From Chthoniobacterales bacterium (lineage in GTDB: Bacteria; Verrucomicrobiota; Verrucomicrobiia; Chthoniobacterales; UBA6821), in assembly GCA_026461395.1 (NCBI GenBank), contig JAPJNA010000038.1, positions 1 through 32,663 of the forward strand: a DNA stretch of 32,663 nt, read 5' to 3'. Numbering within the stretch: the first letter of the stretch is position 1; the number at the start of each line of letters is the position of its first letter. Shown piece by piece: positions 3,433-32,237 of this stretch. The translations under genes were made by a program, and so were the position numbers. The notes beneath the pieces were generated by a model, which ran no database searches, was not told the DNA's origin, and saw only the letters and a list, made by a program, of their open reading frames with translations.

Positions 3433-3444
3433 GGGAGAGAAGGG

Positions 3445-3472
3445 ATGAATTAGGAATGATGAATGATGAAAG
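3445..3472 (+). repeat. Heptameric ATGARNN repeat, map-adk spacer, left arm
   Basis: Four consecutive 7-base units (ATGAATT, AGGAATG, ATGAATG, ATGAAAG) lie just upstream of the map start. A facing array of the same family is at 3536-3556, so the spacer between map and adk is bounded by an inverted pair. Confidence 0.75.
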
Positions 3473-3535
3473 CGGAGAGAAGGGAGAGCGCCGCATCGCG
3501 GATCAACGCCCCGTCAGCTGGAATTCTTTTTTGAT

Positions 3536-3556
3536 ACCTCATACTTCAACCCTCAT
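3536..3556 (-). repeat. Heptameric ATGARNN repeat overlapping the adk stop codon
   Basis: Read on the minus strand there are three 7-base units (ATGAGGG, TTGAAGT, ATGAGGT). The adk stop TGA at 3546-3548 is inside the second unit, so the repeat supplies the last codons and stop of adk. Confidence 0.7.
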
Positions 3557-4220
3557 CCTTTTGATCGACTACCAGCGCCGATAGTCTTGCGAAGATCTCA
3601 TCACTCCCCTCCCCTGCATCAATGCGGTGTAGGAGATTGGGTGATGTCTTTTCGTAGTATCCGACAACGGGTAGCGTGAGATCACGATAAACTTCCAGGC
3701 GCTGATCGAGGGCTGCCTCCGTATCGTCATTTCGGCGAACAAGCAAAGCGCCGCAACGAGGACATGGCGAGCCCTCTTGGTTGCCGTGCAGCGACATGCT
3801 GAATGTGGCGCCGCATTTCAGACAGGAAATCCGCTCCAGAATCCGACGCCGGATCAACTCGTCCGGCAATTCCAGCAACACGATGAGATCTAGTCCGGCT
3901 CTAAGTTCAGCAAGTGAGGAGTCGAGATATTCCGCCTGTCCCACGGTACGGGGAAAACCATCGAAGATAAACCTAGGGCCATTCTCCTTCATCCATGCTG
4001 TCACGATCCGGACCGCAAGCTCATCTGGAACAAGCAGTCCCTTGCTAGTCCATCCGTCGGCTTCCTGCCCGAGAGGAGTGCCTCGTGAGCACTCTGACCG
4101 GAGTAGCGCTCCCGTAGAAACATGGGGAATGAGAAAACAATCGGCAAGCCGGTCTGCCTGGGTCCCCTTCCCCGATGCTGGCGGACCGAGCAGCACGATC
4201 CGATGGTTCACCGGATTCAC
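3546..4220 (-). CDS. adk: Adenylate kinase with zinc-type lid
   Basis: Converts ATP + AMP to 2 ADP. The P-loop GPPASGKGT is at 12-20, the AMP-binding motif FDGFPRT near 86-92, and the lid domain at about 130-165 carries two CxxC pairs (Cys133/136 and Cys153/156), the four-cysteine zinc lid. The length of 224 is typical of long-lid adenylate kinases. The start codon is GTG at 4220; a second GTG three codons later is also possible. It begins 10 bases after secY, the classic secY-adk-map-infA order. The C-terminal residues QKDEG and the stop codon fall in a heptameric repeat. Confidence 0.95.
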   Translation of the reverse strand: MNPVNHRIVLLGPPASGKGTQADRLADCFLIPHVSTGALLRSECSRGTPLGQEADGWTSKGLLVPDELAVRIVTAWMKENGPRFIFDGFPRTVGQAEYLDSSLAELRAGLDLIVLLELPDELIRRRILERISCLKCGATFSMSLHGNQEGSPCPRCGALLVRRNDDTEAALDQRLEVYRDLTLPVVGYYEKTSPNLLHRIDAGEGSDEIFARLSALVVDQKDEG

Positions 4221-26579: not shown

Positions 26580-28124
26580 TTACTCCGGTTGATCGGTGTC
26601 AGTGCGGAAGGGAGCAGCGGGAAGCCCTTCCTTGTTATAGAGTGTGCCCTTGGGGAAACCTCTCCATCCATACCGGACGGCCATGGGATGGGGAACGGCA
26701 TCACTCCAGAGCAGAACCGTGTCGCCCTCGATGCGGCCTTGCGCCGGGAACCACTTACGATCACTGCCCGCAAGCGCGAATCCCTTGAGAGAAGTGACAA
26801 GAGATGGAGAATCTCCCTCTGCCTTCCAAGGAGAGACACCCAGCACTAGACCGCTACCCACGGAATCAAAATCCACTCGAACTTTATCAATATCCCTATC
26901 CTTACCCTTCTCCATGTTCATTTTGTGATAAATAGGGCCTGAATCCACAATCTCCTCTCCATAGACACGGTGGCGGGCCAGCAGGGCAAGACGTCTCCCC
27001 ACGTCGAGTTTGTCCGGAGGGATCCTTTCGTCGGCGACACCGAGATCACTGGCCTCTGCCATCCCAGTGAATGGCAGAGAGAGTGCTGAGGCAATTCCTT
27101 CCCTGAGCCAGGGCAGCCCGCGGCCTGGGGCCAGGTTGCCAGCCTGAGCATGATAGCTCTGAACGGCTGAACCCTCCTCATCTCCAAATCCGGCTTGTGA
27201 AACACAATAAAAGGGGAAGGGTCCCTCCCCCCATTTCTCTCTCCAGTCACGGATCATGCGGGGAAGAATGCGTCGGTACTGCAGGGCCGCAGCACCCTCA
27301 TCAGACTCCCCTTGATACCAGATGATTCCTGTGATGGCGTAGGGAATAAGGGGATGGACCAGTTGCTCAAAACACGAGCCGGGTTCGGGATTTCGTGTCT
27401 CTCGATCCGGAGATGAGGAGATAGAGGGTGGCTTGGAAAGTGCACTCTGACTGATCCAGGAGAGGATGGGCGAGTCCTCACGTGTGCACTGGATCATACC
27501 AATCGGGAGGTGCTGGGAAGTTCTCAGGTCCCTTGCAAAGAAATATCCTACGGCGGAGAAAGCGGGAGCACTATCGGTGGAGCAGACAACCCATCGCCCT
27601 TTTCTTGGACCGGCCTTAGTCCCGAATTGAGTTCCATCTTTGTCCAAGGAGTGGTCGTACTGGAAGAAACGTAGCTTCTCATCGGCGATTTTCTCATCCG
27701 ATTCCTTGCCGATAGGAGCATCGGAAAGCGGCAACGCCATATTTGCTTCGCCAGCACAGACCCAGACATCGCCCACAATGACATCATGAAGTTCCAGGCG
27801 GTTGTTGCCATTGATCACCATGACCAATGGGTCGGGTGATGATGGCAATGGGCGTAAGGTAATCCTCCATTTCCCAAAGGCATCGGCCACAGTCTCCTCG
27901 GAGAGATTGCCGATTGAGAGGGAGACATGTTCGCCAGGCGAGGCTGAACCCCACACCGGAAGAGTCACTCCCTGCTGAAGCACCATGTGATCGCCAAAAA
28001 CCGGCGGAACCGAGACATCCGCGTGAAGACCTATTCCAGAGAGACAGAGAAATACAAAAAACTCGCGCAGTGGCGCAGAGGCGCGGAGGGATTTAAAACG
28101 GATCCCCTTCATATTTTCCCCCAA
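26580..28124 (-). CDS. Sialate O-acetylesterase-like protein with altered active site
   Basis: The 514-residue protein has the layout of the SASA/sialate O-acetylesterase family: signal peptide (about 1-35), a strand DVSVPPVFGDHMVLQQGV, and the blocks GDVWVCAGEANM (118-129), IIWYQGESDEG and DVGRRLALLA. In known members the first block reads GQSNM, with the Ser as nucleophile; here it is GEANM, with Ala127. The family's later IHP has become IPP (about 368-370), so the His is also lost. It is therefore probably inactive as an esterase, or uses other residues; binding of acetylated sugars may remain. The reading frame is intact with no frameshift. The signal-peptide n-region is encoded by an 8-base repeat (28062-28088). 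Met5 (28112) is an alternative start. Confidence 0.85.
   Translation of the reverse strand: MGENMKGIRFKSLRASAPLREFFVFLCLSGIGLHADVSVPPVFGDHMVLQQGVTLPVWGSASPGEHVSLSIGNLSEETVADAFGKWRITLRPLPSSPDPLVMVINGNNRLELHDVIVGDVWVCAGEANMALPLSDAPIGKESDEKIADEKLRFFQYDHSLDKDGTQFGTKAGPRKGRWVVCSTDSAPAFSAVGYFFARDLRTSQHLPIGMIQCTREDSPILSWISQSALSKPPSISSSPDRETRNPEPGSCFEQLVHPLIPYAITGIIWYQGESDEGAAALQYRRILPRMIRDWREKWGEGPFPFYCVSQAGFGDEEGSAVQSYHAQAGNLAPGRGLPWLREGIASALSLPFTGMAEASDLGVADERIPPDKLDVGRRLALLARHRVYGEEIVDSGPIYHKMNMEKGKDRDIDKVRVDFDSVGSGLVLGVSPWKAEGDSPSLVTSLKGFALAGSDRKWFPAQGRIEGDTVLLWSDAVPHPMAVRYGWRGFPKGTLYNKEGLPAAPFRTDTDQPE
28062..28088 (-). repeat. Octameric repeat, arm inside the esterase-like gene
   Basis: A 27-base arm, built on an 8-base unit GCGCCTCT read on the minus strand, encodes SLRASAPLRE-like residues in the esterase-like signal peptide. 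It is the reverse complement of the arm at 28225-28251 with one mismatch. Confidence 0.75.
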
Positions 28125-28224
28125 GCTCTTGAGTTGGCATCTGTGGCCGTTTCTTCACGTGCCTGATTCTTCTGATTTGCTTGCTTGGCCGTTGCTATGC
28201 ATCCGTTGCATCCAGATTAAAAAT

Positions 28225-28251
28225 CTCCGCGCCTCTGCGCCTCTGCGCGAG
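28225..28251 (+). repeat. Octameric repeat, intergenic arm
   Basis: This is the partner of 28062-28088, facing it across 136 bases between the helicase stop and the esterase-like gene. Both arms are flanked by A/T-rich AAAAT-type sequence. Such GC-rich inverted pairs can fold in RNA or DNA and resemble dispersed palindromic elements. Confidence 0.75.
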
Positions 28252-29858: not shown

Positions 29859-29919
29859 AAGGCAGGGACTCTACGCACTAAAGAAGCCCGCGTCACCAAG
29901 GAACGGACGGGAGAGAAGG

Positions 29920-29947
29920 ATGAATTATGAGTGATGAAGTATGAAGG
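29920..29947 (+). repeat. Heptameric ATGARNN repeat, left arm
   Basis: Four 7-base units (ATGAATT, ATGAGTG, ATGAAGT, ATGAAGG) lie between the divergent helicase and flavoprotein genes. It faces the array at 29977-30004 across 29 bases, so transcripts could fold into a long hairpin. Confidence 0.8.
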
Positions 29948-29976
29948 TCCCGGCAATCACGCCTTTTTCACTCACC

Positions 29977-30004
29977 AATTCATCCCTCATACTTCATCAT
30001 TCAT
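29977..30004 (-). repeat. Heptameric ATGARNN repeat, right arm
   Basis: Read on the minus strand there are four 7-base units (ATGAATG, ATGAAGT, ATGAGGG, ATGAATT). It pairs with 29920-29947 and lies about 45 bases before the chosen start of the flavoprotein gene. Confidence 0.8.
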
Positions 30005-30050
30005 ACTTTCCCTTGTTCCACACGCAGCCCCCCTCTGTCATGACTATCTG

Positions 30051-31235
30051 GTGAGCACGGAGATTTCTGAACAGTATGATGTCATTGTTATTGGTGGTGG
30101 TGGTGGCGGCATGTTTTGCGCCTTCACAGCGGCGAATCGTGGAAAGAGGGTCCTGCTTCTGGAACACAACGAACGGCTTGGAAAGAAGATCGAGATTTCC
30201 GGAGGGGGGCGTTGTAATTTTACCAATATCAACGCCTCCTCAGAGAACTACCTCTCCGGGAACCCTGACTTCTGCAAATCGGCACTGGCCCGCTACACTC
30301 CATGGGACTTCATTGGGCTCGTAGAAAAACATGGCATCGCCTACCACGAAAAGAAGCTGGGACAGCAGTTCTGCGACGGCAGTTCGCGTCAGATCATCGG
30401 AATGCTGGAGAGCGAGTGCCGCGAAGCCGGAGTCAGACTCCTCTCCCACTGCGATGTCCGTGAGGTAGAAAAGAGAAATAAGTTCGTTATTCACACCTCT
30501 CGAGGAACTTTTCAATCCGATGCCCTAGTTATGGCTACGGGTGGGCTCTCTTTTACGAAGCTGGGCGCCAGTGATCTCGGCTATCGGATCGCCCGGAAGT
30601 TTGGAATCGGAGTGACGGAACTCCGTCCTGGCCTCGTTCCTCTCACCTTCCAATCCTCGGAAAAAAGCTTTTACGAACCACTTGCCGGAGTGGCTCTTCC
30701 GGTACGAATCACTGCCGGAAGCCGTCGCTTCGAGGAGGCCATGCTCTTCACCCATCGGGGACTCAGCGGCCCGGCAGCCCTCCAGATCTCCTCTTTTTGG
30801 GATGGAACTTCCCCTCTCGCGATCGACCTTCTACCCGACAAGACAGACTCGGAAGCCTTCGCAGCAGCAACCCGCAGTGGCACAACGGCATTACAGAATC
30901 TCTCCAAGATCTGGCCCCGGCGCTTTGCCGAGTCATGGTGTGCTAGGAATGCACCCGAGAAGCCACTTGCACGTTGCAGTAAGGAGGAGATTGAGAGACT
31001 CGATGCGTCGCTTCATGAATGGAAGCAGTCCTTCGCCGGGACGGAGGGATACCCAAAGGCGGAGGTGACTTGCGGAGGGATCGATACCAGTGAGCTCTCC
31101 TCCAAGACCATGGAGTCGAGGAAGGTTCCAGGCCTTTATTTCATTGGTGAAGTTGTGGATGTTACAGGCTGGCTAGGCGGCTATAATTTCCAATGGGCCT
31201 GGGCCAGTGCCAGTGCCTGCGGAACAGCAGTGTGA
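30051..31235 (+). CDS. BaiN/HI0933-type FAD-dependent oxidoreductase
   Basis: The 394-residue flavoprotein has an FAD-binding start QYDVIVIGGGGGGMFCAFTA, then LEHNERLGKKIEISGGGRCN, characteristic of the HI0933/YhiN/BaiN family, and a C-terminal block FIGEVVDVTGWLGGYNFQWA. The reaction is not known for most members. I chose a GTG at 30051. The frame is open further upstream to ATG 29931, but that ATG is inside the heptameric repeat and the added residues are unconserved. The next in-frame Met falls inside the FAD motif, too late. Confidence 0.87.
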   Translation: MSTEISEQYDVIVIGGGGGGMFCAFTAANRGKRVLLLEHNERLGKKIEISGGGRCNFTNINASSENYLSGNPDFCKSALARYTPWDFIGLVEKHGIAYHEKKLGQQFCDGSSRQIIGMLESECREAGVRLLSHCDVREVEKRNKFVIHTSRGTFQSDALVMATGGLSFTKLGASDLGYRIARKFGIGVTELRPGLVPLTFQSSEKSFYEPLAGVALPVRITAGSRRFEEAMLFTHRGLSGPAALQISSFWDGTSPLAIDLLPDKTDSEAFAAATRSGTTALQNLSKIWPRRFAESWCARNAPEKPLARCSKEEIERLDASLHEWKQSFAGTEGYPKAEVTCGGIDTSELSSKTMESRKVPGLYFIGEVVDVTGWLGGYNFQWAWASASACGTAV

Positions 31236-31242
31236 AGAAAGG

Positions 31243-31270
31243 ATGAATTAAGAATTATGAAGGATGAAAC
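31243..31270 (+). repeat. Heptameric ATGARNN repeat, upstream of the four-helix-bundle gene
   Basis: Four 7-base units (ATGAATT, AAGAATT, ATGAAGG, ATGAAAC) start 8 bases after the flavoprotein stop. A two-unit copy follows at 31359-31372, and its first ATG is the start codon chosen for the next gene. The facing array is at 31724-31751. Confidence 0.8.
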
Positions 31271-31358
31271 AAGCCACTCGGGAGCGTCGTGTAAGACTGC
31301 AACTCAGGAGCAGCCAGTTAGGGCGGTACAGCTTTGCGGGGGCAAAGTGCAGTCAATT

Positions 31359-31739
31359 ATGAGGGATGAAAAGAAACCTGCTATCGACCTCTCCGTGAGG
31401 ACGAAGTCATTCGCTCTTAGAGTGATTAGGCTCTACAGCGCCCTTCCAAAAAGCACCGTCGCCCAAACTCTGGGAAAACAAGTTCTGAGATCCGGTACGT
31501 CCGTGGGTGCGAATTACCGCGAAGCCAACAGATCACGTTCCAGAAACGAGTTCGTTGCCAAGATCGGGGATTCCCTCAAAGAACTGGACGAAACCGCATA
31601 CTGGTTCGACTTATTGGTTGAATCAGGAGTTCTCTCGCTTCCTAAAGTCAGAGAACTCTGCGGCGAGTGTGATGAACTGACTGCTATCCTCACGACAATT
31701 TCAAAGAGGAGCAAGGCCTCCCCTCTTCATCATTCATAA
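31359..31739 (+). CDS. Four-helix-bundle protein (S23/IVS-like)
   Basis: The 126-residue protein starts MRDEKKPAIDLSVRTKSFAL and carries the family core IRLYSALPKSTVAQTLGKQV, RSGTSVGANYREANRSRS and DSLKELDETAYWFDLLVESG. This matches the four-helix-bundle family named from 23S rRNA intervening-sequence proteins and related to the Avd proteins of diversity-generating retroelements. Its molecular role is not settled. The start codon and the stop codon (TAA at 31737-31739) both lie inside heptameric repeats, and the last residues LHHS are repeat-encoded. A longer start at 31257 also begins in a repeat. No reverse transcriptase or rRNA gene is near. Confidence 0.9.
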   Translation: MRDEKKPAIDLSVRTKSFALRVIRLYSALPKSTVAQTLGKQVLRSGTSVGANYREANRSRSRNEFVAKIGDSLKELDETAYWFDLLVESGVLSLPKVRELCGECDELTAILTTISKRSKASPLHHS

Positions 31740-31751
31740 TTCATCCTTCAT
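31724..31751 (-). repeat. Heptameric ATGARNN repeat, at the end of the four-helix-bundle gene
   Basis: Read on the minus strand there are four 7-base units (ATGAAGG, ATGAATT, ATGAATG, ATGAAGA). It is in inverse orientation to the 31243-31270 array, so the pair brackets the gene like terminal inverted repeats. The gene's stop codon spans two units. Confidence 0.8.
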
Positions 31752-31766
31752 AATTTCTTCTTTTCC

Positions 31767-32237
31767 GTGCGTAAACGTAATCCCCACAAGACTTCCGATC
31801 CTCGGCGCGACACCGAGGAGGCTATTGCCGGTGTCCGTCAGATCTATGCAGAGCTTAAGGCCAACCCTCCAGAGAGGAACTGCACCCTGCTTACCGAGTG
31901 CTGCCGCTTTCAACTCACAGGAGCAACTCCCGTCCTGACCAAGGGAGAGGCACTCACTGCGGCGAAGGCTGTCCGCGCAGCAGGCAGAAAGGAACTGCCG
32001 AAGCGCGAGGATGGGGCCTGCCCACTACTTCACCCCTACACATCACGCTGCATGATCTACGAGGGACGACCTTTCGGATGCCGTACCCATTTCTGCGAAG
32101 CCGCAGGAGGTCCCTACACAAGAAAGGAAGTCACCGAGTGGATCCACCGCCTCGAGGAGATCGACGCGCGAATCGGGGGGGATGGGGGTCGCGACATCAC
32201 TGTGGCCATCCGGGATGCCCTAGAGGACTTGAAGTAA
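31767..32237 (+). CDS. YkgJ-family cysteine-cluster protein
   Basis: The 156-residue cytoplasmic protein has cysteines at about 39, 45, 46, 85, 95, 105 and 110, in NCTLLTECCRF and in CPLLHPYTSRCMIYEGRPFG followed by CRTHFC. This is the pattern of the YkgJ family (also called UPF0153), thought to bind zinc or an iron-sulfur cluster. The function is unknown. The start codon is GTG at 31767. It follows the four-helix-bundle gene's flanking repeat by about 15 bases. Confidence 0.85.
   Translation: MRKRNPHKTSDPRRDTEEAIAGVRQIYAELKANPPERNCTLLTECCRFQLTGATPVLTKGEALTAAKAVRAAGRKELPKREDGACPLLHPYTSRCMIYEGRPFGCRTHFCEAAGGPYTRKEVTEWIHRLEEIDARIGGDGGRDITVAIRDALEDLK

Follow-up and report, generated by a model that had tools for sequence, protein, structure and literature searches.

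Toward one end of a 32,663-nucleotide stretch of DNA from a Chthoniobacterales bacterium (the window, which is the whole of contig C12 in a 2.03-Mb draft genome, G000, that is 95% complete), a gene for an S23/IVP four-helix-bundle protein (PF05635, TIGR02436; locus L005) stands between two inverted arrays of 7-nt units. S23 genes elsewhere in the order and beyond it are bracketed in the same way, the class of the arrays matches the subfamily of the protein, units are present at some orthologous sites and absent from others, and the protein is under purifying selection. We consider it probable that the unit is a selfish element of ~0.5 kb, made up of an S23 gene and two inverted arrays of its cognate heptamer that serve as its ends.

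Inverted heptamer arrays around S23 genes

The window's gene lies at 31359..31739 on the forward strand and encodes 126 amino acids, with a TAA stop codon at 31737-31739. By direct reading, the outer part of the left (5') array is ATGAATT AAGAATT ATGAAGG ATGAAAC (31243..31270, forward strand), in which the second unit, AAGAATT, deviates from ATGA, and two inner units, ATGAGGG ATGAAAA (31359..31372, forward strand), hold the conserved start codon at 31359-31361. The right (3') array, also a direct reading, is inverted (TTCATCA TTCATAA TTCATCC TTCATAA TT; 31726..31755, reverse strand), and the stop codon lies within it. As a score for each S23 locus, we used the best inverted match between the 200 bases upstream and the 250 bases downstream of the S23 domain. 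In the window, the left arm at 31239-31262 matches the reverse complement of the right arm at 31725-31748 with a score of 18, compared to a median of 8 and a 99.9th percentile of 14 for controls of the same geometry. This confirms an earlier note on this DNA, which had described an S23-like gene bracketed by inverted ATGARNN arrays.

The start codon given in that note is not supported. The start conserved among orthologues is the ATG at 31359, in the inner two-unit array (MRDEKK..., compared to MRDEIK... in L004), and we preferred it to an ATG at 31257, from which the longer frame crosses a separate dispersed repeat of 86 nt. This repeat (31271..31356, forward strand) has stem-forming segments and sits between the units of the left array. 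G004 has a copy at the same place with 91% identity, partial copies occur elsewhere in the genus, a full-length copy (77%) is found in G014, and a similar stretch lies between other repeats in L068. Because it is missing from the orthologous units of G001, G005 and G007, we regard it as a later insertion and not as part of the core element.

Taking a score of at least 12 as bracketed, we found inverted arrays at 58 of 72 S23 loci in the window's genome and its relatives in the order (median score 14.5). Only 0.6% of 6000 positions of the same geometry, drawn from 306 kb of the window's genome, reached this score (median 8), as did 4 of 183 other small open reading frames (ORFs) of that genome (2.2%) in a gene-centred control. 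The 58 loci are a lower bound, since several loci under the threshold show arrays by eye, such as L052, whose orthologue L003 scores 14. By eye, all five S23 genes of the window's genome have inverted arrays on both sides, with TTAGACTG units at L001 and L002, GGGTAAT units at L003 and ATGARNN units at L004 and L005. Three successive ATGARNN units occur 32 times in this genome, compared to no occurrence of the reversed control pattern (AGTANNRAGTANNRAGTA). In G017, G018, G020 and G035, AGTANNRAGTANNRAGTA is itself abundant, which points to the expansion of a further heptamer class in these genomes.

A scan of public genomes with an alignment of the window gene's subfamily gave 77 usable homologues, from Verrucomicrobiota, Chloroflexi, Geobacter and other Deltaproteobacteria, Lamprocystis, Nitrospirae, Planctomycetes, Spirochaetes, Sumerlaeia, Holophagales and Bacteroidetes. 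Of these, 59 score 12 or more, compared to 1.1% of other positions within these loci, and the remaining S23 genes in 23 of these genomes are bracketed in 22 of 29 cases. Plasmid S23 genes (from Nostoc, Calothrix, Pseudanabaena, Anabaena, Picosynechococcus, Riemerella and Azospirillum) score at least 14 in 7 of 8 cases. With plasmids included, bracketing is seen in at least eight groups beyond the window's order. A check that the earlier note had proposed, to look for arrays at other copies of the gene, thus came out in its favour within the genome, within the order and across phyla.

That note had further read the arrays as supplying the start and stop codons of the gene. In the window, this holds for the stop codon, in the right array, and for the conserved start, in the inner array; it is not general, as an array overlaps the stop codon in 17 of 59 S23 loci, and the supply of both codons is mainly a feature of the ATGARNN class. 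A separate observation concerns plasmids of Pseudanabaena (L317), Anabaena 90 (L320) and Picosynechococcus (L322), on which heptamer-bracketed S23 genes lie within CRISPR-Cas gene sets, in cas6/cas4 or cas10/cmr3 intervals. Their presence there may reflect insertion rather than function.

Array class, orthologous sites and gene-less pairs

The sequence of the unit varies between loci (ATGAAGG, TCGAGGG, TTAGACTG, GGGTAAT, AGACCGT, GGGGTTA, TAGGGAG, AAAGCTA, AGGTGAC and others). Of 127 S23 loci, 106 have arrays with a period of 7 and 19 have a period of 8. On the gene strand, purines predominate in the left arm in 123 of 136 cases, and arrays most often consist of about four units. We rejected ATGARNN as a marker of S23 genes in all relatives because units differ in other clades, and we rejected the pairing of one four-helix gene with one repeat family because many classes were found: there are many S23 subfamilies with their own heptamer, and genes of a second, unrelated family, GxxExxY, are arranged likewise.

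When loci from different clades are compared in 8414 pairs, the arrays become more similar as protein identity increases (Spearman 0.44). No label permutation out of 500 matched this value; since locus pairs are not independent, the permutation count is the test to rely on. When two arrays are counted as alike at a similarity of at least 0.6, they are alike in 48–53% of pairs with at least 60% protein identity, compared to 1–3% of pairs below 40%. For S23 pairs within the same genome that share less than 50% identity, arrays are alike in 0–4%. The array sequence therefore tracks the protein subfamily across phyla, not the genome.

The window protein matches Pfam PF05635 at 70.6 bits (cut-off 33.8) and NCBIfam TIGR02436 at 88.1 bits (cut-off 24). 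Its AlphaFold2 model is a four-helix bundle (pLDDT 93.7), for which the top fold matches in the PDB are 2rld and 2gsc of the S23 family (TM-score to 2rld 0.77–0.80), followed by Avd (4dwl) and the Avd subunit of the reverse-transcriptase complex of a diversity-generating retroelement (DGR; 8ub7). A relationship to Avd is also detected in sequence (L001 against DivGenRetAVD, E 7e-6), and homology of S23 and Avd has been pointed out earlier (PMC10053308). XCC0516 (2gsc) is a ring of five four-helix bundles, according to the statement quoted in PMC4990558. The ratio of nonsynonymous to synonymous substitution rates (dN/dS) is 0.11–0.14 between the window gene and its orthologues and 0.04–0.14 among S23 orthologues of the genus. 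The protein is under purifying selection, and from these ratios it is evidently made and matters, either to the element or to the host. Of 56 S23 genes, 43 share the orientation of both neighbours and 3 oppose both, so the genes are probably co-transcribed with the surrounding operon.

All orthologous sites examined are junctions between protein genes. At the window junction, an S23 gene with ATGARNN arrays is present in G000, G001, G004 and G005 and truncated in G007; G003 has a gene-less ATGARNN pair, G010 and G013 have solo right arrays, and G002, G006 and G012 have a gene-less pair of another unit, GGAACTCA, while G014 has another array type with other contents and G015 has no array. Upstream of cysD, an S23 gene of one subfamily lies between GGGTAAT arrays in G000, G004 and G010, and one of a different subfamily lies between GGTTAAAGCG arrays in G001, G002, G007 and G014. 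The same site has a solo array in G003 and short empty junctions in G005, G008, G009, G011, G012 and G013; where it is filled, the upstream gene has its final codons replaced and receives a new end from the element. Upstream of bioD, S23 genes with TTAGACTG arrays are found in G000, G004 and G012, gene-less pairs of the TTAGACTG class in G002, G006 and G014, and a solo array in G010. The patterns at these sites are the presence and absence expected from gain and loss of whole units.

Array pairs are also dispersed without a gene. In an unbiased search, the window's genome has 3.0 inverted array pairs per 100 kb (19 in 628 kb), compared to 4.0 in G004, 5.0 in G007, 5.6 in G064 and 1.0 in G056. 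Samples of 200 kb from each of two relatives that have neither S23 nor GxxExxY genes, G016 and G023, contained no pair, a gene-free comparison of 400 kb in total; a slightly narrower pair search found none in shuffled sequence. Of 28 gene-less arms, 27 match an arm from an S23 or GxxExxY element of the genus that carries its gene, compared to 0.2% of shuffled arms. Some pairs are nested, as with a GGAACTCA pair inside a GCGCAGAGG pair (L090, 3638-4318). A CACAAGA-type pair likewise lies within the TTAGACTG pair at the bioD site of G006 (L229).

Many gene-less pairs have units, for example GCGCAGAGG, that are carried by no S23 gene of the genus. GxxExxY genes (PF13366, PDDEXK_3) have array neighbours of this kind, and we tested them for bracketing. 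Inverted arrays bracket 26 of the 30 GxxExxY genes in the order (L323-L352), with a median score of 20 and a period of 8 in 12 of 26 and of 9 in another 12; the locus in the window's genome is L331 (C20:24169). The GxxExxY family accounts for most gene-less pairs in the window's genome. For S23 genes, the association exceeds what the earlier note had claimed, in that array class tracks subfamily and gene-less copies of the same class are dispersed.

A candidate selfish element and its rivals

The S23 protein, whose solved relatives are Avd-like rings of five subunits, could bind single-stranded nucleic acid at its own heptamer array, the target being either single-stranded DNA or a hairpin RNA transcribed from the host operon. 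With such binding, a unit with array ends could be copied or could insert close to the ends of genes, with gene-less copies produced in trans. We looked for a hidden mover in the form of a RAYT (REP-associated tyrosine transposase, REP being the repetitive extragenic palindromic sequence) or a reverse transcriptase, and detected neither in the window's genome: it has no match to Y1_Tnp (PF01797, the RAYT/IS200 transposase), which 5 of 21 family genomes possess, and none to RVT_1 (PF00078). Most relatives that carry S23 genes are without both. As S23 has no known catalytic site and the genome has neither of these enzymes, catalysis would have to come from host replication or repair or from another cellular enzyme. 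Because the arrays could pair in several registers, an insertion would fold as a hairpin and may impose a low cost in an operon, like the S23 intervening sequence (IVS) in 23S rRNA. GxxExxY proteins could form a parallel system with 8–9-nt arrays.

A broader proposal, which we offer tentatively, is that these units belong to a general class of bacterial mobile elements whose ends are tandem arrays, the sequence and period of which are set by a small protein that binds nucleic acid: S23 pentamers would go with heptamers, typically at about four units per arm, and PDDEXK GxxExxY proteins with octamers or nonamers. The S23 ring may wrap the array, as single-stranded DNA or RNA, one unit after another, as TRAP does with RNA repeats, and guide copying into operons. 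If this holds, much of the heptamer repeat content of bacteria would be the footprint of such elements and not of polymerase slippage. We found no report that links S23 or GxxExxY genes with tandem or inverted arrays in the literature searched (subscription journals excluded), and on that search an array-ended class that moves as we infer would be categorically new in its architecture. S23 and GxxExxY proteins are widespread, occur in multiple copies and have no known function, and the link to heptamers would give the proteins and the repeats a shared, directly testable explanation. It would also connect the intervening sequences of rRNA, together with Avd of DGRs, with a larger group of selfish elements, and the paired sets of protein subfamilies and array sequences could serve as natural data for reading a recognition code.

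Several points weigh against a selfish element. Our comparison is one of sequences, and no movement was observed; all genomes of the order are drafts or metagenome-assembled genomes. The correlation of subfamily and array could be due to joint descent of linked DNA without recognition, and the permutation test alone does not separate joint inheritance from recognition. We know of no catalytic residues in S23. At the orthologous sites, no precise target-site boundary or duplication could be defined, as the empty sites have diverged too far and the insertions disturb the end of the gene before them. The interiors of gene-less pairs are mutually unrelated, which rules out conserved copies of a miniature inverted-repeat transposable element (MITE) and suggests that some of these pairs, unlike REPINs or MITEs, may be decayed or otherwise formed. 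In G003 (93% complete), no S23 gene was found, yet there are 30 sites with three successive ATGARNN units; either the arrays persist once the gene is gone, or the gene is in a part of the genome that the assembly lacks. The earlier note's suggestion that gene and repeats spread together thus fares well as to arrays at other S23 genes and the presence and absence of units, with movement itself remaining our inference. The comparison of syntenic sites that it had proposed did reveal filled, gene-less, solo and empty sites, without the clean boundaries hoped for.

One alternative, which we regard as unlikely, is that the unit is an RNA-processing cassette: RNase III would cut the array stems and so remove the S23 gene and spacer from the host mRNA, the S23 protein would bind or stabilise RNA, and spread would occur by ordinary recombination. 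Pairing of the left and right arrays in the predicted RNA fold of the window unit (z = -4.2) is consistent with this, as are the sense orientation of S23 genes in operons (43 versus 3) and the Coxiella intervening sequence, a stem-bounded S23 ORF that is cut by RNase III (PMC4990558). Processing of this kind leaves unexplained why unit sequences are subfamily-specific and why there are many dispersed gene-less pairs and solo arrays. It may instead be how the element is tolerated, which is compatible with a selfish element.

Self-generated arrays seem very unlikely as an explanation. Here, slippage during replication would generate heptamer arrays between genes, where S23 and GxxExxY genes would land as passengers or be kept by recombination. 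According to PMC4679880, heptamers are the most abundant repeat unit of 5–11 nt in most genomes and polymerase slippage is proposed as their origin, and arrays that outlast the gene, as in G003, would fit. Yet the arrays are inverted pairs and not random arrays, across phyla their class goes with the subfamily of the protein rather than with the genome, their period depends on the gene family (7 for S23, 8–9 for GxxExxY), and the samples of two genomes without both genes contain no pairs. We give hardly any weight to a defence or addiction module, in which S23 and GxxExxY proteins would act as effector or antidote and the arrays would mark the boundary of a cassette for some recombinase. The cyanobacterial plasmid genes between cas6/cas4 or cas10/cmr3, the PDDEXK fold of GxxExxY, which suggests a nuclease, and the strong purifying selection could be read in its favour; against this, the neighbouring genes are diverse (HI0933-like, cysH/cysD, ABC permeases, bioD, ribonucleotide reductase), single genes are bracketed and not gene clusters, no associated recombinase was found, and the arrays have no fixed recombination site.

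Known systems and other arrays in the window

The units resemble RAYT/REPIN systems in organisation and S23 IVSs in anatomy, and they belong to neither. Like the S23 IVS of 23S rRNA in Leptospira and Coxiella (PMC4990558), they have a PF05635 ORF of similar size, terminal inverted repeats that form a stem, a sporadic distribution and a position within a transcribed unit, and the IVS has been called a selfish element in the literature. Unlike the IVS, window-type units lie between protein-coding genes and not in 23S rRNA helices, their ends are tandem heptamer arrays with many subfamily-specific sequences, and there are several dissimilar copies per genome as well as dispersed gene-less copies. 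With RAYTs (TnpA-REP), REPINs and bacterial interspersed mosaic elements (BIMEs; PMC3116915, PMC2817692, PMC8266576), they share an organisation in which a short repeat lies in inverted copies on either side of a gene, inverted doublets without a gene are dispersed, and each of several classes has a gene of its own; in both, the copies are mostly intergenic and some are nested. They differ in that the bracketed gene is PF05635, with no HUH/Y1 tyrosine transposase in the window's genome, that the repeats are non-palindromic 7-nt tandem units and not palindromic REPs, and that gene-less interiors are unconserved, copies occur on plasmids and several dissimilar copies occur per genome. Of the RAYT/REP-like linkage suggested in the earlier note, the link of class to gene and the gene-less dispersal can be kept; the Y1 transposase and the palindromes are missing.

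Avd of DGRs (4DWL, 8UB7) is similar in fold and has a detectable sequence relationship. A DGR differs from the units described here, as the window's genome has no RVT_1; template and variable repeats (TR/VR) were not searched for. MITEs and insertion sequence (IS) elements likewise have inverted ends and gene-bearing and gene-less forms; unlike them, the units here have no transposase and have array ends of variable length, and the empty sites are too diverged to define a target-site duplication.

Heptamers have long been described in cyanobacteria as short tandemly repeated repetitive (STRR) sequences. Like the arrays here, STRR and other bacterial heptamer repeats are 7-nt tandem units that are intergenic and of many sequences, and on plasmids of Nostoc, Pseudanabaena and Anabaena, heptamers flank S23 genes as inverted arrays. 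In the heptamer-repeat literature examined, no connection is drawn to S23 genes or to inverted pairing.

The window unit itself is flanked by an HI0933-like oxidoreductase gene (29931-31235) and a CxxCxxCC gene (31767-32237). Directly upstream of the oxidoreductase gene lies a gene-less inverted pair, or hairpin, of the ATGARNN class (29915..30010; arms 29926-29944 and 29987-30005, score 16), an arm of which matches the S23 element L059 of G009 at 0.88. A possible second ATGARNN pair without a gene (3443..3560) consists of an array at 3443-3472, which as the left arm matches the S23 element L064 at 0.88, and a weaker inverted partner at ~3538-3560 that falls under the detector threshold. The octamer class GCGCAGAGG, which brackets GxxExxY genes in this genus, forms a gene-less inverted pair at 28062..28251 (28062-28088 and 28225-28251, score 24), and its arm matches the GxxExxY element L335 of G007 at 0.96. 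The GCGCAGAGG array at 28062-28088 is translated into the predicted N-terminus (SLRASAPLRE...) of an ORF on the reverse strand (26580-28124), an instance of how such arrays give false or altered ends to annotated proteins.
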